DNA from: Lacibacter sp. H407 | GTDB lineage: Bacteria > Bacteroidota > Bacteroidia > Chitinophagales > Chitinophagaceae | NCBI RefSeq assembly: GCF_037892605.1 | Contig: NZ_JBBKTU010000001.1 | Location: 1,054,001-1,118,000 of the forward strand | Length of the DNA: 64,000 nt | Direction: 5' to 3' | Part shown: one piece after another, positions 8,218-16,591 of the stretch | Numbering within the stretch: position 1 is the first letter of the stretch | How the letters are laid out: every line of letters begins with the position of its first letter | Position numbers and translations under genes: made by a program | The notes under the pieces: model-generated | Seen by the model: only the letters and a program-made list of their open reading frames with translations | What the model was told of the DNA's origin: nothing | The model's database searches: none

Positions 8218-9207
8218 ATGGCGAATGCTACACTCAAAAAAATAGCCCAGGTATTGGATATCAGTATTTCTACTGTATCGAGAGCACTGAAAAATCATCC
8301 CGATATCTCAACCAACACAAAACAAAAAGTAATGGAGTTGGCTGAAACATTGGAGTATGAACCCAACGCAGTGGCGGTGAACCTGCGGAGCAAGAACACG
8401 AAAGTGTTTGGTATCATGATCCCATCTATTACCAATAATTTCTACGATTCATTTATTGCGGCGGTTGAAGAAGAAGTAAAACAATCAGGCTATTCATTGA
8501 TGATCCTGCAAAGTGCAGACAATGCTGAGACCGAAATTGAGAATTTAAAAATTTACCGGCAGAACAGGGTAAGTGGTGTATTTGTATGTTTAGCTAAAGA
8601 AACAACTAATCTCGATTCCTATCATAAAATGAAAGACGCAGGTATCCCGGTAGTGTTTTTTGATAAAGTGCCGGATGATGATACATACAACAGAGTTTGC
8701 CTGGCCGATAAAGATGCAGCGGTAATGGCAGCAGAAGCCTTATTGAAAAAACAGAAGAAAAACATACTGGCCATTTTTGGTGATCCGCAAATATCTATTA
8801 CCAAACGAAGATTACAGGCATTGAACGAAACATTGCAACCCCACAAGAAAATAAAATTAACTGTTGAACATGCAGACACCATGGAGGTAGCAGGAGCAAT
8901 CACCCATCGTTACTTTCAATTGAAGCAACCACCCGATGCAGTGTTTTGTATGAGCGATGAAATATTAATGGGCGTAATGAAATGTGTGCAGCAATTGAAA
9001 CTTGACATTCCAAAGCAAGCAGGAGTGATTGCATTAAGCGATGGCTTTTTTCCAAAGATCTATTTTCCCGAGATCACCTATGTTGAAACAAGTGGTTACC
9101 GTTTGGGAAAACTTGCCTGCGAACGAATGATGCAATGTGTGAAAGGAAAAGAAGAACCAAAAGAGTTGTTTGTAAGTTCCCGCTTTGTAGAAGGTAATTC
9201 GCTATAA
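8218..9207 (+). CDS. LacI family transcriptional regulator
   Basis: A 329-residue DNA-binding repressor. Residues 3-50 hold the LacI helix-turn-helix (TLKKIAQVLDISISTVSRAL) and hinge (ANLRSKNT-like segment AVNLRSKNTKVFG), followed by a periplasmic-binding-protein-like effector domain (FGIMIPSITNNFYDSFI, VCLADKDAAVMAAEALL). The hinge helix and central-CG operator at 8158-8177 fit minor-groove insertion known for this family. It is divergent from the SusC/SusD genes, so it probably senses a sugar derived from their substrate and also autoregulates. Its stop overlaps the convergent O-antigen ligase gene's stop by 6 bases. Confidence 0.95.
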   Translation: MANATLKKIAQVLDISISTVSRALKNHPDISTNTKQKVMELAETLEYEPNAVAVNLRSKNTKVFGIMIPSITNNFYDSFIAAVEEEVKQSGYSLMILQSADNAETEIENLKIYRQNRVSGVFVCLAKETTNLDSYHKMKDAGIPVVFFDKVPDDDTYNRVCLADKDAAVMAAEALLKKQKKNILAIFGDPQISITKRRLQALNETLQPHKKIKLTVEHADTMEVAGAITHRYFQLKQPPDAVFCMSDEILMGVMKCVQQLKLDIPKQAGVIALSDGFFPKIYFPEITYVETSGYRLGKLACERMMQCVKGKEEPKELFVSSRFVEGNSL

Positions 9208-10644
9208 TGCAGCGTTGTTTGTTTGCTGTTGATTGATCTTCACCTGAACACGAATCAATAATCCCAGCAACAGAAAATAAATGCTGCCGATCTTATCGGT
9301 TTCAATTAAATCACTCAACAGGTTTAAGGTTACAACCATACTTAATACAACTGCGCACAACATCGACAGGGATCGTTCAAACTGATCATTCAATACATGA
9401 TATCCTTTTACAGCAATTGCAAACATGCCGAACAATAAAATGATCAACAGTAATAAACCGGGTATGCCCTGTTCAATTGCAATGAGCAGAAAATAATTAT
9501 GAACCGATGACTTTTCCTCATTCTTGCTTACCCATGTTTTAAACGCTGCAACAGTGTATTCTTTGTAATAAATGGTAAACGTATTCGGACCATACCCTTT
9601 CAACTTTTCTTTATTCACCATTTTTATCCCGGCGATCCAGCGGTAAAAACGTTCCATGGTCGACATGTCTTTCAATGTATAGGTTGCTTCCAGGTGTTCA
9701 TTAAAATTTGTATGCTGAGTAGTTGTATTAAAGTCAGGTGCAAATTTGAGATAGTTATCTTCTTGAACCAACCAGAACAAACTTAATGCTGCGAGAATGA
9801 TCACAGCCATTATCAGCGACAGTAAAAATTTCCGTTTTACCGCCACCCACGCAATCACTCCCGATAATAAACAAAGCCATGCGCCTCTTGAATAAGCAAA
9901 AAATAAAGCAGCAAGAAACAACCCCATACAAACAAGTATCCATGTACGTAAACGACCGACTGCAAAATGATGCCATACAAACAGGATCGGGAACAAGCAC
10001 ACCAGCAGCGCCGAATAATTCACATGGTTACGAAAAAACGGATCTAATGTAGAGTTGATCGATTCAAACGTAAATCCTTTTTCTGCATGACGGATCAAAC
10101 TGACGCAGACGGGAAGAAGCATGGAAAAGATGAGGCACTTTGATGCGAGTACAAGATCTTTCTTTGTTCGCAAAAACAATAAGCTACCCACCACAAACGC
10201 AAGAATAAACCAGGTTTTCGCCAGGCTGTATTTTACACTCAACCATACTTCATGCGAAAAGAAAACCGTTACCAACGTCCAGCTAAGTTGCAGCAGCAGC
10301 AAAAAAAATAAACTGCTTTTTTTTAATTCAACCGGAAACAGCGAGGGCTTTATCAGCAGTATACATACAAGTGAACCCGACAGTAACAGCATCATCGGTT
10401 CATCAGGAAGATCGGTGGATAGTGTATCGGTTACTGCAAATTCAGTAGAAAGTGGAACAGCAACCAGCAAAGCAAAAAACAAATAGCGTACGTTGATCGT
10501 AAACAGCAAAATGGCCAATACGGCAAACGGAAGGATCAGCAAGATTTTCTCATCCAATACCACACCCAATACAAAACATGCAATGGCTGCCAATGCCGGC
10601 AACCAATAGTTGATCAACTCCTGTTTTGTAAAGAGGTGTTGCAT
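9202..10644 (-). CDS. O-antigen ligase / Wzy-type polysaccharide polymerase
   Basis: A polytopic membrane protein of about 480 residues with roughly ten to twelve hydrophobic helices and the long outer loop of the Wzy_C family, with FAYSRGAWLCLLSG in a helix and the segment KGYGPNTFTIYY followed by HNYFLLIAIEQGIPGLL, the typical late His-containing motif of O-antigen ligases. It would join or polymerise lipid-linked glycans on the periplasmic side. I start at the ATG at 10644, which is one base after the upstream stop; a longer frame to 10740 exists but would overlap the upstream gene heavily and lacks support. The gene is likely cotranscribed with the Wzz-like gene. No glycosyltransferases or flippase lie nearby, so its glycan is unknown. 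Confidence 0.85.
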   Translation of the reverse strand: MQHLFTKQELINYWLPALAAIACFVLGVVLDEKILLILPFAVLAILLFTINVRYLFFALLVAVPLSTEFAVTDTLSTDLPDEPMMLLLSGSLVCILLIKPSLFPVELKKSSLFFLLLLQLSWTLVTVFFSHEVWLSVKYSLAKTWFILAFVVGSLLFLRTKKDLVLASKCLIFSMLLPVCVSLIRHAEKGFTFESINSTLDPFFRNHVNYSALLVCLFPILFVWHHFAVGRLRTWILVCMGLFLAALFFAYSRGAWLCLLSGVIAWVAVKRKFLLSLIMAVIILAALSLFWLVQEDNYLKFAPDFNTTTQHTNFNEHLEATYTLKDMSTMERFYRWIAGIKMVNKEKLKGYGPNTFTIYYKEYTVAAFKTWVSKNEEKSSVHNYFLLIAIEQGIPGLLLLIILLFGMFAIAVKGYHVLNDQFERSLSMLCAVVLSMVVTLNLLSDLIETDKIGSIYFLLLGLLIRVQVKINQQQTNNAAL

Positions 10645-10645
10645 A

Positions 10646-11488
10646 TCAGCTTGCTTTTGACCGGGAACGCCATTCCACAAACAACAATAACAATACAGAA
10701 AAAATAAACGACACAACAGCCGCCATAATGACGCCTGCAATAATTTTTGGTTTATCTTTTTTCAATGCCGGTAATGCTTCTTCGATCACAAATAAAGAGC
10801 TTACATTGTTTACACTGGTGTTGAATTGCTGGATGAGTTTTTCTGTTTCATTCAGCCGGTTGATGATATCGGTCTTTCTTGCTAACAAAAACGCATCAGC
10901 ACCTAATTGTAACTGCTGTTCAATTTGCTGCAGCGTATCCTTTTGTGTGTTGAAATCATGCTGCAGCTTTTGCAATATTTCCAGCTTCATATTATTGGAC
11001 GATGCTACACTCTTTTGATTGGTGCGTGTAACAATGGCATTGGCAATGGCAGCAGCAAGTTGTTTATCGGTATCCCACACGTTCACTTTTACATGACCAA
11101 ACTCGTTCTTATGAATATGTACATTCTCTTTGTATTCATAATCGGCGAGGTAAGCAGCTCGTACATTGGAAGAATCAATTTTGTAATGCTTCATCAATCG
11201 GAAACTATCTACCATAAACCTGCACATTTCTTCCGAACGTGCAAGCGCCATCAACCGGTCATTATCAAATTCGCCACCGTAATAAAAGTATTGTTCCCAA
11301 AATTCGGTGCGGTAAATATTCGAACGATCGCCAAGATTGGGATTGGCAGCCGTAAAAACAGCGGAGCTTCTGAAATAGGGTTTTTGTATAAACAGAATTA
11401 CACCTGTTGCCAACGAACCAAGCAATACCAGTATAGCTGCCTGCTTCCATCGTTTGCGGATCACTTCAAAAACAATATCTACATTCAT
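10646..11488 (-). CDS. Wzz-like polysaccharide chain-length determinant / co-polymerase
   Basis: About 280 residues with a transmembrane helix near residues 15-35, a periplasmic region rich in heptad-like Gln/Leu (KLQHDFNTQKDTLQQIEQQL) predicting coiled coil, and a second transmembrane helix near the C-terminus. This two-helix arrangement is that of polysaccharide co-polymerases that set glycan chain length. I use the ATG at 11488; a TTG two codons earlier is possible. No tyrosine kinase domain is fused. The neighbour downstream is the O-antigen ligase-like gene, which is consistent with a paired function in surface polysaccharide assembly. Confidence 0.7.
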   Translation of the reverse strand: MNVDIVFEVIRKRWKQAAILVLLGSLATGVILFIQKPYFRSSAVFTAANPNLGDRSNIYRTEFWEQYFYYGGEFDNDRLMALARSEEMCRFMVDSFRLMKHYKIDSSNVRAAYLADYEYKENVHIHKNEFGHVKVNVWDTDKQLAAAIANAIVTRTNQKSVASSNNMKLEILQKLQHDFNTQKDTLQQIEQQLQLGADAFLLARKTDIINRLNETEKLIQQFNTSVNNVSSLFVIEEALPALKKDKPKIIAGVIMAAVVSFIFSVLLLLFVEWRSRSKAS

Positions 11489-11548: not shown

Positions 11549-12025
11549 TCAGGCTACATCCAATGCCACCTGCACTTTGCGGTTAAAACTTTCATCGAGT
11601 GAAATAAAAGTTTCGGTACGTTCGATCCCCTTTATTTTTTGCAACGCATCGTGCAATACATACCGCAACTGATTAATGTCTTTACATACCACTTCAATAA
11701 ACATACTGTAGTTACCGGTAGTATAGTTAAGGCGAACAATCTCCGGTATCTTACGCAGATCCTTTGCCACCGTATCGTACAACGAACTTTTTTCAAGATA
11801 AATACCCACAAAGGCAGTAATGTCGTAACCGAGGGCTTTAATATCTACATTCAACTTTGTACCTTTAACAATTCCATGTTCCTGTAGTTTTTTGATCCGT
11901 ACATGGATGGTTCCCCCGGAAACAAAGAGCTTTTTGCCCAAATCAGCGTAAGAGATCTGCGCATCTTCCATCATTTCTGAAATGATCTGCAGATCGAGTT
12001 TGTCAAGATTTAATTTCGATGCCAT
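11549..12025 (-). CDS. Lrp/AsnC family transcriptional regulator
   Basis: A 158-residue protein with an N-terminal winged helix-turn-helix (LDLQIISEMMEDAQISYADLGKKLFVSGGTIHVRIKKL in outline, residues 8-47) and a C-terminal RAM/AsnC ligand-binding domain (GYDITAFVGIYLEK, VRLNYTTGNYSMFIEVVCKD). Members sense amino acids or related small molecules and act as octamers. It is divergent from the tandem tRNA-like RNA genes, with about 145 bases between its start and the first RNA, and monocistronic. Its regulon cannot be read here. Confidence 0.92.
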   Translation of the reverse strand: MASKLNLDKLDLQIISEMMEDAQISYADLGKKLFVSGGTIHVRIKKLQEHGIVKGTKLNVDIKALGYDITAFVGIYLEKSSLYDTVAKDLRKIPEIVRLNYTTGNYSMFIEVVCKDINQLRYVLHDALQKIKGIERTETFISLDESFNRKVQVALDVA

Positions 12026-12170
12026 TTTTACGATTCGTTTTAATGCTTTTCCAATATTAGTGATTAAATTTTGAATAATATCGAAAGTTTTAAAATTTTT
12101 GTTGAATAATTTGCAATGAATAGGGGATATGGTTTAATATTGCACTGTAATCGTTCTTTGAACAACATAC

Positions 12171-12323
12171 TGTGGAGTGATGAAATTTTCGGCAGACATG
12201 CCCTCTCGTCTCGGGGGTGGAGAAACCAGGATAAACGTAACGTAGGGCAGTAATGCCGGGGTTGACCACCAACCATGCGTTATGGCTAACTGCTCCGTGG
12301 AGGTTCGATCCCTCCCTCTACAG
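12171..12323 (+). ncRNA. tRNA-like structured RNA with giant variable arm, copy 1
   Basis: A class II tRNA cloverleaf can be drawn by eye. Acceptor TGTGGAG (12171-12177) pairs with CTCTACA (12316-12322); D-stem ATG/CAT (12180-12182, 12197-12199) encloses a D-loop with GG; anticodon stem CCCTC/GGGGG (12201-12205, 12213-12217) has a 7-base loop TCGTCTC; T-arm GGAGG, loop TTCGATC, CCTCC (12299-12315) abuts the acceptor as in tRNA; discriminator G follows, with CA but no encoded CCA. The variable region is 81 bases instead of about 15-20: GGAG/CTCC base stem, CAG/CTG, an internal loop GATAAA opposite GCTAA, then CGTAACG (12236-12242) with CGTTATG (12278-12284), capped by a GNRA hairpin (12246-12257). 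Loop position 33 is C, not the near-universal U, so decoding is doubtful. The role is unknown. Confidence 0.75.
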
Positions 12324-12406
12324 CAAAACAATCAGGTGAAGAAACAGACAATTGGCAATGAGCCTTTGAACGAAATCATCTGTTGTTAACGAGTTCTTTT
12401 TTACAC

Positions 12407-12577
12407 TGTGGGGTGATGAAATTTTTGGCAGACATGCCCTCTCGTCTCGGGGGTGGAGATAACAGGATAAACGCAGCATAGAGCCGACGTTACTTTTGGT
12501 AAGGCCGACCGGGGTTGACCACTAAACTTTGTGCTGCAGCTAACTGCTCCGTGGAGGTTCGATCCCTCCCCCTACAG
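12407..12577 (+). ncRNA. tRNA-like structured RNA with giant variable arm, copy 2
   Basis: A second copy 83 bases after the first. Acceptor TGTGGGG (12407-12413) pairs with CCCTACA (12570-12576), a compensatory A-U to G-C change relative to copy 1. D-stem, anticodon stem-loop (12437-12453, loop TCGTCTC) and T-arm (12553-12569) are identical to copy 1. The variable region is 99 bases; its long helix is GCAGCATAGA (12473-12482) with TTTGTGCTGC (12528-12537), fully different in sequence from copy 1 but still paired. Conserved single-stranded pieces include CAGGATAAACG, CCGGGGTTGACCAC and GCTAACTGCTCCGTGGAGG. Both copies are preceded by GTTCTTT 14-18 bases upstream of the mature 5' end, perhaps part of a promoter or processing signal. 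Confidence 0.75.
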
Positions 12578-12753
12578 CATATTTCAATTGCTTAGCAATA
12601 CCAGTTAACGATTTTTTCCGTACAGATTTTCTCATGCTTTTTTTACGATTGCCTTTTGTTTTTACAAAGGGCTCTTTTGTTTTCAGCCCGCTCCCTTAAT
12701 TATTTACTATCATTTTCCATAATCAGTTTGTACATTGAAGCATAAATCAAACT

Positions 12754-13368
12754 ATGCAGGCAACTGATCTTAACCCGTTAGTTGACAGGGTACTCACGGA
12801 GTTACGCACCGGGCTTTCATCGCATCTAACCTATCACAGTGTACAACACACGCTTGATGTAATGGAACAAGCCGATGCCATTGCCAACAGAGAAGGTATT
12901 CTTGATGCCGAGGATTTTTTATTGATTAAACTGGCAGCGCTGTATCATGATACCGGATTTCTGGAAGTATATAAAGGACACGAAGAAGTGAGTTGTGTAA
13001 AAGCTACCCGTGAACTTACAGCGGTTGGATTGGGCGACGCAGCAATTCAACGAATTTGTGGAATGATCATGGCGACAAAAATTCCGCAGCAGCCTCATAA
13101 TTTATTTGAGCAAATTCTTGCAGATGCAGACCTTGATTATCTTGGCCGCACCGATTTCGTTTCCATCAGCAATAAACTACGTACCGAATTTCTTGATCAT
13201 AAAATTGTAGATACGGATACAGCATTTGATGCACTTCAGCTTCGGTTCCTTGAATCGCATAGTTATTTCACCTCATCATCCCGTGCACTCCGTGCCCCTG
13301 TAAAACAACTGCACTACGAAACACTTTTACAACAACATTCAACCGGTACAAACAACCATCCTCTATGA
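12754..13368 (+). CDS. HD domain metal-dependent phosphohydrolase
   Basis: A 204-residue HD-superfamily protein. The metal-binding set is visible: H28/H32 in YHSVQHT, the HD pair H65-D66 in LYHDTGF, H76 in GHEE, and the late Asp in ADADLDYLG near residue 125. Such proteins hydrolyse phosphoester bonds, often in nucleotides or cyclic nucleotides. Its stop overlaps the next start by 4 bases (ATGA), so it is translationally coupled to the transporter-HEAT protein. With a cyclic-nucleotide-binding gene and an adenylate cyclase next door, a nucleotide second-messenger substrate is plausible but not shown. A start of ATG at 12754 is the only good choice. Confidence 0.85.
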   Translation: MQATDLNPLVDRVLTELRTGLSSHLTYHSVQHTLDVMEQADAIANREGILDAEDFLLIKLAALYHDTGFLEVYKGHEEVSCVKATRELTAVGLGDAAIQRICGMIMATKIPQQPHNLFEQILADADLDYLGRTDFVSISNKLRTEFLDHKIVDTDTAFDALQLRFLESHSYFTSSSRALRAPVKQLHYETLLQQHSTGTNNHPL

Positions 13369-16118
13369 GCGGTTTACAACGATTTTTTCAGCTGCTCAAT
13401 ATTCAACCCATTGAATGGCCCATGGTGAGGCGATTGTTTTTGCTTCAGTTTTTCCAGGGAGCAGGTATTGCCTTGTTTTTTACATCAGCACTCTCACAGT
13501 TTCTCAAACGTTTTCCGATCTCCGAACTGGCCTATGTGTTTATCCTATCGGCGTTCCTCTTATGGATCGCAGGCTATGTATGTAACAGGCTCGAACATCG
13601 CTTACCTGTTCGTCAATTAAGTATTGTACTTACGCTCATTATTGCAGGCAGCATGTTGTTTTTCTGGATTGGTCAGTTTTTTGCGATTACGCAAAACTGG
13701 TTTTACTATTTAATGCTGGCCTGGTTCAACGTATTATACCTCATCAACAATCTTGAATTCTGGGGATTAGCTGCACAGTTGTATGATGTACGACAAAGCA
13801 AGCGCCTGTTTGGTGTGATCAGCTCCGGTGACATTCCGGCGAAATTTCTCGGTTACACATTTGCGTTAGTATTGGTGCCTTACATTGGTGCACAAAACCT
13901 TTTACTCACCGGTTTTGTTGGCGTACTCATTTCCCTGCTCTTTATTAATAAAGTATTCAATTCAACAGAGTGGGCCGGTTTTAATAAACACACACATAAA
14001 GTAAAACAACATCACACTGTAAGCGCAGGTGCATTGTGGAAAAACTTTATCAGCAACCGCCTAATCTTAGATACGGCTATTTTATCCATGATTGCCTTCA
14101 CCGGTTTTGTATTGGTTGAATATGCATTTTATGCTGAAATAAAAGAATCAAAAAACTATAAAACCGATGAGGCCTTTGCAACCTTCACTGCCTTGTTTAT
14201 GGGCTGCGCCCGGTTGTTGGCATGGATCTTAAAACTTGGATTAACCAGCAGGTTGGTAACGAATATCGGCAACCGGAATGCCTTACTCATCACACCTATT
14301 GCATTACTTGTTTTCAATATTTCTATTCTTGTGATCTATGAGAACGATGCAAAAAGCAATTTGATCCTGTATGTATTTGGTGCCGCCGCAATTTTGGTTG
14401 ATGCATTGCGTGCATCCATCAACTCACCCGTATTACTTACCATTCTGCAACCGCTTTCAACACCTGAGCGTTTACGGGCACATAATATTGTAAAAGGTGT
14501 GATGGATCCGTTTGCGTATCTCACAATTGGCGTATTACTGTTTGTTTTATATAACTGGAAGCTCTATGAGCTGGCAGTTCTTTCCTGGGTATTGATTGGC
14601 GTTTCTATCTGCTGGATCATTTCAGTAATACAGTTGCAGAAACAATATATCAAAACATTGATTCAAACCATCAGCAGCCGTTATTTCCAAACCGACGATG
14701 TACAACTTACCGGCAAAGCAACCATCGAAAAAATTGCAGCGAAAATGGAAACAGGTACAGAGCTGGAAGTATTGTACCTGTTGAAATTGCTTGAAACGGA
14801 AACAGAAAAAGCACAGGAAGGATTGATCGCAAAAGCACTGCAACATCCATCGGGTGAAGTACGCATTGCAGCATTGGAATTGGTGGGGAAGAAAAAATTA
14901 AATAATCTCGCTGCGGATGTCAGGAAACTGATTGATGAAGAACAGACAGTTGCTGTTCGTGCCAAAGCAATTGAAGTGTTGGCAGCTTTATCGTACGAGC
15001 ATGCTTATTTTCTTCAAATGCTTAATCATGACGAAGAACAGATCCAAATTGCTGCTTTGGAAAGTATTGTTCAATATGCTCCTTCAACAGATAAAGAGCC
15101 GGCACTTACACTGCTGCAACAATGGGCCACATCATCTGTAAAAAAACAACGGATGAATGCTGTGCAGATCTTAAGCAGCGTATCAATTGCATCTTCACAT
15201 ACATTATTGTTTGCCTTGTTGAATGATGCTGATAAAGAGATCCGTTATGCAGCGATCGTTGCAGCAGGCAAATCGGCTGAACCAAAAAACCTTGAATTGC
15301 TACCTGCACTATTTGCATTACATCCGAAACAGGTGTTACAGGCATTGATCACTGCGGGAAGCAAAGGACTTACACAGATACGTTTGCTCTTGCAACAAAC
15401 AACCACAGCGAAAGAACAAAGCAGTTTGATCATAGCAGCCGGACGAATTGGCGGAGAGGAAGCAGAGCAATTACTCATCGAATTATTAGAGCAACAAACA
15501 ACCAACAGTGCTGCTATTCTCAAAGCATTGAACCGGATGAATTATACATCTGATGAAAAACATCAGGCATTGATCGATGAACGAACCAATCAACATTTGT
15601 TACGGGCTGTTGAATTGCTGTTTATGCTGAATCGATTGCTGGCAACAGAAAAAACAAATCTCTTTCTCTATAATTCACTGCAACTGGAATTACTGGAAGA
15701 ACGGGAAACCGTATTAAACCTGTTCTCGTTTTATTCCGAAAAAGAGCAGGTAGATAAGATCAAAAAAGCATTGCAATTAAATCAACGGGAAACGGCTGCT
15801 AATGCGTTGGAGTTGATCGAGCTCACCATCCGCAAAGATTTTGCATTTACGTTCAATACCGTATTTGAAGAAGCAGATATTTCGTTCCGCTGTTCACGGC
15901 TTCGTAAAATGATACCGGACAGTCTGTACAAAAATATTGAGCAGGTGATCACACATATTCTGGAAGAAGAAAAAGAAGAATTTAATCACTGGACCAAAGC
16001 CTGTTCTTTACACAGTTGTAAATTTCATAAGCTGCGGGTAGATCATACCATTTTCCATAAGTATCTTCAATCCGAAAACAGATTGTTGCGGGAAACAGCC
16101 GCCTATGCAGTAACCTAA
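13365..16118 (+). CDS. MFS/Npt-type membrane transporter fused to C-terminal HEAT repeats
   Basis: A 917-residue protein in two parts. Residues about 15-430 contain around twelve hydrophobic helices and resemble the ATP/ADP translocase-like (Npt/AAA) branch of the MFS fold. Residues about 450-900 are soluble, helical and repetitive, with HEAT-like units (PSGEVRIAALELVGKKKLNN, DEEQIQIAALESIVQYAPST, NDADKEIRYAAIVAAGKSAE). In related proteins a cyclic-nucleotide-binding domain follows the HEAT repeats; here the next gene, 17 bases downstream, encodes exactly such a domain on its own. The transported substrate is unknown. The protein probably links a membrane channel or sensor to cytosolic cNMP signalling. 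Confidence 0.75.
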   Translation: MSGLQRFFQLLNIQPIEWPMVRRLFLLQFFQGAGIALFFTSALSQFLKRFPISELAYVFILSAFLLWIAGYVCNRLEHRLPVRQLSIVLTLIIAGSMLFFWIGQFFAITQNWFYYLMLAWFNVLYLINNLEFWGLAAQLYDVRQSKRLFGVISSGDIPAKFLGYTFALVLVPYIGAQNLLLTGFVGVLISLLFINKVFNSTEWAGFNKHTHKVKQHHTVSAGALWKNFISNRLILDTAILSMIAFTGFVLVEYAFYAEIKESKNYKTDEAFATFTALFMGCARLLAWILKLGLTSRLVTNIGNRNALLITPIALLVFNISILVIYENDAKSNLILYVFGAAAILVDALRASINSPVLLTILQPLSTPERLRAHNIVKGVMDPFAYLTIGVLLFVLYNWKLYELAVLSWVLIGVSICWIISVIQLQKQYIKTLIQTISSRYFQTDDVQLTGKATIEKIAAKMETGTELEVLYLLKLLETETEKAQEGLIAKALQHPSGEVRIAALELVGKKKLNNLAADVRKLIDEEQTVAVRAKAIEVLAALSYEHAYFLQMLNHDEEQIQIAALESIVQYAPSTDKEPALTLLQQWATSSVKKQRMNAVQILSSVSIASSHTLLFALLNDADKEIRYAAIVAAGKSAEPKNLELLPALFALHPKQVLQALITAGSKGLTQIRLLLQQTTTAKEQSSLIIAAGRIGGEEAEQLLIELLEQQTTNSAAILKALNRMNYTSDEKHQALIDERTNQHLLRAVELLFMLNRLLATEKTNLFLYNSLQLELLEERETVLNLFSFYSEKEQVDKIKKALQLNQRETAANALELIELTIRKDFAFTFNTVFEEADISFRCSRLRKMIPDSLYKNIEQVITHILEEEKEEFNHWTKACSLHSCKFHKLRVDHTIFHKYLQSENRLLRETAAYAVT

Positions 16119-16135
16119 ACCCCAAATTCCACATC

Positions 16136-16591
16136 ATGAATCCATCGGCTGATAAATTATTGTTGTTTGAAAAAGTGTTGATCCTGAAATCGCTCCGGTT
16201 GTTCAGCGAAACACCTGAAACTATTTTATCGGAACTGGCACCATTGATGGAAGAAACAGAATACCAGGCCGATACTGTTATTTTCAAAGAAGCAGATATT
16301 GGCGACTGTATGTACATCATTTACAAAGGCCAGGTAAAAATTCATAAAAAACAGGTAACGTTAGCTGTGTTAACAGAGAAGGAAGTGTTTGGTGAATTAT
16401 CGTTACTTGATTCAGAAACAAGATCAGCTTCTGCAACCTGTGTAACAGATTGTTTTTTATTCAAGATCGATCAGGAACCGTTTTATGAATTACTGGAAGC
16501 AAGGCCGGAAATTGCAAGAGGATTTATTAAAATACTTTGTCAACGTTTGCGGCAACAAAATGAAAAATCAGTAGCTGCAGCAAATGCTTAG
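16136..16591 (+). CDS. Stand-alone cyclic nucleotide-binding domain protein
   Basis: A 151-residue protein made of one Crp-like cyclic-nucleotide-binding beta-roll. The phosphate-binding cassette is clear: FGELSLLDSETRSASA near residues 85-100, with GEL and the Arg that holds the cyclic phosphate. There is no C-terminal helix-turn-helix, so it is not a Crp-type transcription factor. It follows the transporter-HEAT gene by 17 bases and overlaps the 3' end of the convergent adenylate cyclase by 4 bases. It likely works as a regulatory subunit for the HEAT-repeat membrane protein. Confidence 0.85.
   Translation: MNPSADKLLLFEKVLILKSLRLFSETPETILSELAPLMEETEYQADTVIFKEADIGDCMYIIYKGQVKIHKKQVTLAVLTEKEVFGELSLLDSETRSASATCVTDCFLFKIDQEPFYELLEARPEIARGFIKILCQRLRQQNEKSVAAANA

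Follow-up and report, generated by a model that had tools for sequence, protein, structure and literature searches.

What might a bacterium do with a tandem pair of tRNA-like RNAs whose variable regions reach 81 and 99 nucleotides? The pair lies on the plus strand of a 64,000-nucleotide stretch of the Lacibacter sp. H407 genome, which as a whole is called the window here. Copy 1 (its positions 1 to 73) occupies 12171–12323 and is followed by a conserved C74 at 12324; copy 2 occupies 12407–12577, with C74 at 12578, and scores 208.7 bits with our covariance model R1. Both are class II cloverleaves at the positions where an earlier note on this DNA had placed them. Each has a 7-bp acceptor stem (12171–12177 with 12316–12322 in copy 1, 12407–12413 with 12570–12576 in copy 2), a 3-bp D stem, a 5-bp anticodon stem and a 5-bp T arm (12299–12315 and 12553–12569). 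The anticodon loop UCGUCUC (C33, G34 U35 C36, U37, C38) is the same in both copies, as had been claimed, and spans 12206–12212 and 12442–12448. The variable region of copy 1 (12218–12298, 81 nt) contains the stems GGAG/CUCC and CAG/CUG, an internal loop GAUAAA/CUAA, and a distal helix with hairpins; that of copy 2 (12454–12552, 99 nt) follows the same plan with a different distal helix. The changes described between the copies, an acceptor pair going from A-U to G-C and a changed variable-arm helix, are correct. The body is Leu-like, with a short D stem, GG in the D loop and two unpaired bases between the variable stem and the T stem, the last being a feature of Leu tRNAs, and the Leu-type class II body was thus borne out. 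Single-sequence folding of the two copies was unremarkable (z of −1.8 and −0.9, with 9 and 36 of 200 shuffles equally stable). A terminator-like hairpin follows copy 2 on the same strand (12651–12672); note that the consensus scan gave one such site where 0.9 were expected in shuffles, so that alone it is no evidence.

Similar DNA was found in 34 of the 59 genomes searched, with the genome of origin counted. When 35 copies were aligned with MAFFT, 98.1% of cells were paired, and 16 pairs were changed on both sides, compared with a mean of 9.0 for shuffled alignments and 2 to 6 with slid partners. A second structure test was performed on 32 copies, 30 of them from families other than that of the window, using 27 pairs that included the variable stems. 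Here 97.9% of cells were paired, 16 pairs were changed on both sides against 9.7 in shuffles, and the covariation score was 0.424, compared with 0.182 for shuffled and at most 0.124 for slid partners. Four of five measures in this set lay above every shuffle; the fifth, the number of further pair types, was within the shuffle range (32 against 30.0, reached in 101 of 500). All six core helices of the 32 copies are kept with compensatory changes, and the variable stems hold across families, as the proposal of a covarying long variable arm had it. Acceptor pairs 4 to 7 vary with compensation and pairs 1 to 3 are constant. This comparative evidence is decisive, and the observation of tandem tRNA-like RNAs is confirmed as real.

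We then searched 395 genomes of the phylum with model R1. Matches of at least 84.7 bits and at least 111 nt were obtained in 40 genomes from seven families (f1, 12; f18, 5; f22, 7; f27, 8; f28, 2; f29, 3; f67, 3), and homologues with matching covariation were thereby found. The remaining matches were shorter and scored 58.8 bits or less; two of these were examined, a relative in genome G127 and a match in G096 that proved to be an ordinary tRNA-Leu and was rejected. A pattern scan of named genomes, in which GTCTCG was required in the loop, matched at least 120 stretches. Among the matches listed, 80 named loci have titles that all belong to Bacteroidota or related groups (Chitinophaga, Niabella, Pedobacter, Sphingobacterium, Spirosoma, Dyadobacter, Algoriphagus, Saprospiraceae, Ignavibacteriales and others), and the model matches each of the 80, with 102 matches in total. 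Because the scan required GTCTCG, these loci were kept out of the loop counts given below. Viral contigs contained no exact match to a 27-nt stretch.

Most copies share a recurrent variable domain consisting of a 4-bp stem, a bulge, a 3-bp stem and the internal loop GAUAAA/CUAA, with GAAA replacing GAUAAA in some distant copies. Long copies carry a covarying helix and two hairpins beyond the internal loop. Shorter paralogues of about 117 nt have a small distal hairpin only, often GNRA-capped, and since they do without the distal domain, the conserved core is the tRNA body plus the internal loop, with the distal part being optional. No Rfam family, tmRNA included, reached its gathering threshold in the window, as expected for an RNA outside the described families, and a search of six loci gave six Rfam matches, each below threshold; a known Rfam RNA was therefore ruled out. 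ARAGORN reported no tRNA in the window, and a search of the Lacibacter genome with RF00005 returned 50 tRNA matches, none of them at either RNA. An intron-bearing tRNA was likewise ruled out, because the anticodon stem-loop is unbroken and it is the variable region that holds the additional sequence.

Base frequencies were determined for 91 distinct full-length copies drawn from 96 matches, after dropping three duplicates and two partial matches. For the anticodon loop, 90 copies with a seven-base loop were counted, with the copy at L031 set aside because the alignment puts its insertion there. Because of kinship among the copies, many of which belong to the family of the window, the following counts are not independent: U1-A72, G2-C71, U3-A70, G73 and C74 are constant in 91 of 91 copies, and U35, C36 and C38 in 90 of 90 loops, with G34 in 86. 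The four loops in which G34 is replaced have U (genome G372), C (two f28 copies) or A (the G127 relative). Position 33 is U in 56 loops, C in 26, A in 7 and G in 1, so C33 is not the fixed hallmark that it had been taken for. Position 37 is U in 79 loops, C in 7 and G in 4, and is never A. All 50 distinct ARAGORN tRNA sequences of the Lacibacter genome combine U33 with a purine at 37, a rule of decoding tRNAs that both window copies break with C33 and U37. The view that ordinary decoding is unlikely is upheld by the full set, in which 34 of 90 loops have a base other than U at 33 and none has A at 37.

The constant bases resemble those of an aspartate tRNA. According to the available part of PMC9976931, the strong aspartate determinants are G73, G34, U35, C36 and C38, with G2-C71 a lesser one, and bacterial tRNA-Asp has G1-C72, termed crucial. 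Both window copies possess G34, U35, C36, C38 and G73. Among the determinants given in that part of the source, the RNA has all except G1-C72, in place of which U1-A72 stands in 91 of 91 copies; G2-C71 is present in all 91. Bacterial GatCAB recognizes U1-A72, as stated in the accessible sections of PMC4206432. Positions 35, 36 and 38 are fixed while 33 and 37 vary, so the bases read by AspRS are kept and those used in decoding are free. The class II body had suggested a seryl or leucyl acceptor, an idea that was dropped because G73 with U35, C36 and C38 fits aspartate and the A73 of leucine tRNAs occurs in 0 of 91 copies. An ordinary-length variable arm is missing too, the variable regions in the window being 81 and 99 nt.

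The gene divergent from the RNAs encodes an AsnC-type regulator of the Lrp/AsnC group (158 aa, 11549–12025 on the minus strand), with 145 nt between its start codon and copy 1. The shared intergenic region (12026–12170) is similar in copies from the same genus, and its likely function is that of an AsnC operator and promoter. Within it, TTTAATATTGC at 12133–12143 resembles the Bacteroidetes −7 element. The best NCBIfam model for the regulator is that of AsnC, NF008384 (E of 9.6e-48, 161.9 bits), compared with 8.7e-16 for Lrp; the score is below the equivalog cut-off of 227 bits, yet this is by far the best model. The best PDB match is E. coli AsnC (2cg4, 1e-31). In the first comparison, the divergent upstream gene formed the sole large cluster of similar neighbours, in 35 of 49 loci. 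Of the 40 RNA-positive genomes in the phylum set, 30 have a divergent asnC and the other 10, which include all five genomes of f18, have none adjacent. Among the named loci listed, 74 could be assessed, six others being left out for having too little flank; asnC is present in 52 of the 74 and is divergent in all 52. The asnC gene of E. coli K-12 lies divergently to asnA, the gene for asparagine synthetase A, and the two are 151 nt apart. The arrangement of asnC beside asnB or asnA was also sought in other Bacteroidota and rejected, with no asnC-like gene near AsnB or AsnA genes in 20 stretches; 66 loci did yield asnC in this same type of search.

Other features of this neighbourhood were recorded. 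A boxA-like sequence, GTTCTTTGAACA, precedes copy 1 at 12153–12164, and GTTCTTTGAACAAC occurs exactly once in the genome. A GTTCTTT element is found upstream of 16 of 40 copies of f1 and, among the named copies listed, of 15 of 101, compared with 1.7 expected from a mononucleotide shuffle. The idea of a boxA like that of rRNA leaders was dropped because one stretch upstream of a 16S gene contained no such site. An O-antigen ligase-like gene lies near asnC, and genes for HD-domain, HEAT-repeat and cyclic-nucleotide-binding proteins follow the RNAs (9202–10740 and 12754–16591 of the window); none of these forms a large conserved-neighbour cluster.

Asparagine and amidotransferase genes were surveyed in 80 genomes: the 40 RNA-positive genomes, the G127 variant, and 39 RNA-negative genomes that we selected from the matches listed. 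RNA-negative genomes beyond these 39 enter the AsnB count only. AsnRS was found in 80 of 80 genomes, so free asparagine is needed in them. GlnRS was found in 65, GatB in 54 and AsnA in 5. GatB, the subunit of GatCAB that was searched, is present in all 40 RNA-positive genomes. Within the class of the window, and with G127 set aside, it occurs in 37 of 37 RNA-positive genomes versus 1 of 24 RNA-negative genomes; for those with GlnRS the numbers are 34 of 34 versus 0 of 23. The single exception, RNA-negative G096, is without GlnRS and so needs GatCAB for glutamine. Outside the class the link is weaker, with GatB in 12 of the 15 RNA-negative genomes tested. GlnRS is absent from 6 of the 40 RNA-positive genomes (G327, G221, G439 and three of f67), which need GatCAB for glutamine regardless. 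Two genomes of the window’s own family, G074 and G170, have neither RNA nor GatB, and in f22, where nine genomes were tested, G060 and G177 also have neither and the other seven have both; RNA and GatB thus seem to have been jointly lost or gained on more than one occasion.

E. coli-type AsnB, defined as a score over the cut-off of NF006949, was sought in all 395 genomes and found in 62, comprising none of the 40 RNA-positive genomes and 62 of the 355 others. In the same-class set it occurs in 0 of 37 RNA-positive versus 19 of 24 RNA-negative genomes; the 19 include G086 despite in-frame stop codons and leave out G108, which is just below cut-off. Fisher tests gave p of 6e-16 for GatB and 1e-11 for AsnB, values that ignore the shared ancestry of the genomes and so overstate the support; the RNA-negative set was chosen by us. 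Proteins over the cut-off of TIGR01536, an AEB-type asparagine synthase model, are present in 35 of the 40 RNA-positive genomes. Seven that were examined scored low with the AsnB model (258 to 320 bits, with a cut-off of 499). The Lacibacter genome has two, one amid polysaccharide genes and the other beside a Cys/Met PLP enzyme; the latter may make asparagine. AsnA is present in 3 of the 40 RNA-positive genomes, and five of the 40 (G035, G205, G245, G304 and G372) are without AsnA, E. coli-type AsnB or a TIGR01536 protein over cut-off. The U34 of the RNA in G372 is awkward for the explanation given below because that genome has no recognized asparagine synthetase. In the genomes tested, the RNA family and its associations (linkage to asnC, co-occurrence with GatB and avoidance of E. 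coli-type AsnB) are established. With respect to the earlier interpretation, a tRNA-like family outside Rfam that is unlikely to decode in the ordinary way stands; the aspartate identity set, the U1-A72 mark for GatCAB, the AsnC-like neighbour and the GatB and AsnB pattern had been missed.

Two sites in the anticodon domain of AspRS, which we take to control discrimination, were compared in genomes with and without the RNA. One bacterial-type AspRS was found in each of 40 genomes tested (26 RNA-positive, G127 and 13 RNA-negative). The solved enzymes named Asp/Asn (4wj3 and 4rmf) have His and Gly at these sites, E. coli has Leu and Lys, and the Lacibacter enzyme has Phe and Lys. Among 38 AspRS sequences the first site is Phe, Leu or Lys and never His, and the second is Lys in 36; the sites are alike in RNA-positive and RNA-negative genomes. 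On our reading, AspRS in these organisms would be discriminating, and a separate RNA would be needed to put aspartate within the reach of GatCAB.

The explanation that we judge rather probable is that the RNA is a dedicated non-decoding tRNA, charged with aspartate by AspRS and amidated by GatCAB, that supplies asparagine under the control of AsnC. The transcript would be processed like a tRNA and receive CCA, and would then be charged with aspartate by the cell’s AspRS. GatCAB would convert the RNA-bound aspartate to asparagine, aided by U1-A72, which is absent from ordinary tRNA-Asp. Asparagine would be freed, spontaneously or by a putative deacylase, to feed AsnRS, and AsnC would sense asparagine and control the divergent RNA promoter. 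The changes at positions 33 and 37, together with the variable domain, would keep the asparaginyl RNA off the ribosome, where asparagine would enter at Asp codons. The strongest single argument is that GatCAB is retained only together with the RNA, since a genome with AsnRS, GlnRS and a discriminating AspRS offers this enzyme no other substrate that is known. The release of asparagine is the weakest step. Caution is also called for by U1-A72 in place of G1-C72, by the AEB-type paralogues in 35 of 40 RNA-positive genomes and by shared ancestry behind the associations; a long variable arm of Leu type might be an obstacle for AspRS. In a more specific form of this proposal, to which we would give somewhat less than an even chance, the RNA is a tRNA-derived reusable cofactor that never decodes and cycles between AspRS and GatCAB to yield free asparagine, with the variable-arm domain (GAUAAA/CUAA) organizing the cycle or promoting asparagine release.

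The same facts can be arranged differently. An RNA that is charged or amidated in order to report the Asp/Asn state, for example by binding AsnC or another protein, and that is not the main source of asparagine, would suit the conserved divergent asnC linkage, the elaborate and conserved variable domain, and the possible asparagine maker of AEB type in most RNA-positive genomes. Such a regulatory role leaves unexplained why GatB persists only alongside the RNA in those same-class genomes tested in which GlnRS and AsnRS are both present, and why E. coli-type AsnB is avoided, and we consider it unlikely. Somewhat more doubtful still is that asparagine is made by GatCAB on ordinary tRNA-Asn through a non-discriminating AspRS, as in Bdellovibrio, with the RNA having an unrelated role. 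The available part of PMC4206432 lists Bacteroidetes with AsnRS, GlnRS and GatCAB and without asparagine synthetase, and one of the two canonical tRNA-Asn genes of the Lacibacter genome has U1-A72; against this, within the class the presence of GatB follows that of the RNA, and AspRS is without His in 38 of 38 sequences and has Lys at the second site in 36, if the sites mean what we take them to mean.

Donation of aspartate or asparagine from the charged RNA to a non-ribosomal product (a lipid, a peptide or a cell-wall component) has a precedent in the dedicated non-translating tRNAs for cell-wall synthesis of staphylococci. It is improbable here, as the co-occurrence of GatB indicates amidation and the sole large cluster of neighbours is that of AsnC, with no widely conserved transferase beside the RNA. 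If the RNA were a tRNA in decay, or one that decodes despite its odd variable arm, the full cloverleaf, the conserved T and D loops and the anticodon GUC would be accounted for. We give this hardly any weight, in view of the free positions 33 and 37, the covariation across families and the standard tRNA-Asp gene present in the Lacibacter genome.

The carrier RNA proposed here has partial likenesses among known systems. The non-proteogenic tRNA-Gly of staphylococci serves the cell wall, where it feeds the peptide bridge, and has no giant variable arm; the likeness is in a dedicated tRNA outside translation, as proposed here, and the differences are in the amino acid and the variable arm. Class II tRNAs for Leu and Ser share the Leu-type D arm, the two unpaired bases before the T stem and a long variable arm, and differ from the present RNA, which has G73 instead of A73, a GUC anticodon with C38 and, in the window, a variable region of 81 to 99 nt, and is missed by ARAGORN and RF00005. 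The E. coli asnC-asnA pair also has AsnC divergent from a gene for making asparagine (a role only proposed for the RNA), across a gap of 151 nt versus 145 nt here, with the difference that here an RNA gene stands where E. coli has asnA. In tRNA-dependent asparagine synthesis, AspRS and GatCAB act on tRNA-Asn, as the accessible sections of PMC4206432 describe for Bdellovibrio, Deinococcus and Staphylococcus. Our proposal shares with the pathway described there the predicted placement of aspartate on a U1-A72 RNA followed by amidation by GatCAB, and the presence of AsnRS, GlnRS and GatCAB in one genome; that pathway uses an ordinary tRNA-Asn and a non-discriminating AspRS and passes its product to translation, whereas here there is a separate RNA with an Asp anticodon and a non-decoding loop. 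The predicted chemistry is already known, and the proposed dedicated non-decoding RNA belongs to a new family that would carry a variant of it. The RNA did not turn up in our literature searches, whose coverage stops short of preprints (bioRxiv) and most subscription papers. In the part of PMC4206432 available, the asparagine source of Bacteroidetes with AsnRS, GlnRS and GatCAB and without a clear synthetase is left open, with tRNA-Asn supposed. The RNA would be a specific answer to that question and, if the proposal is true, a tRNA kept for metabolism and not for translation.

Several members depart from the common plan. The G127 relative (L075:3337–3415, family f28) is 79 nt long, is without the long variable arm and is called tRNA-Asp(AUC) by ARAGORN; it looks like a decaying member, and its genome has AsnA. 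The RNAs at L064:3570–3687 and L065:3430–3547 (both f28) and at L062:3149–3261 have C34 or U34, giving the Glu-like anticodons CUC or UUC, and the two f28 genomes are without GlnRS; the amino acid charged may be different in these members. The RNA at L031:1360–1569 is 210 nt long, both its D loop and its variable arm containing additional hairpin-like sequence. Stand-alone pieces of variable arm (model positions 62–138, 21 to 26 bits) occur at L047:977–1044 and 1295–1362 near a full copy. Elsewhere in the Lacibacter genome, locus L120 (about 842.9–844.4 kb of contig 1) packs more than 10 tRNA genes of unusual sequence into a dense array that may lie on a mobile element.
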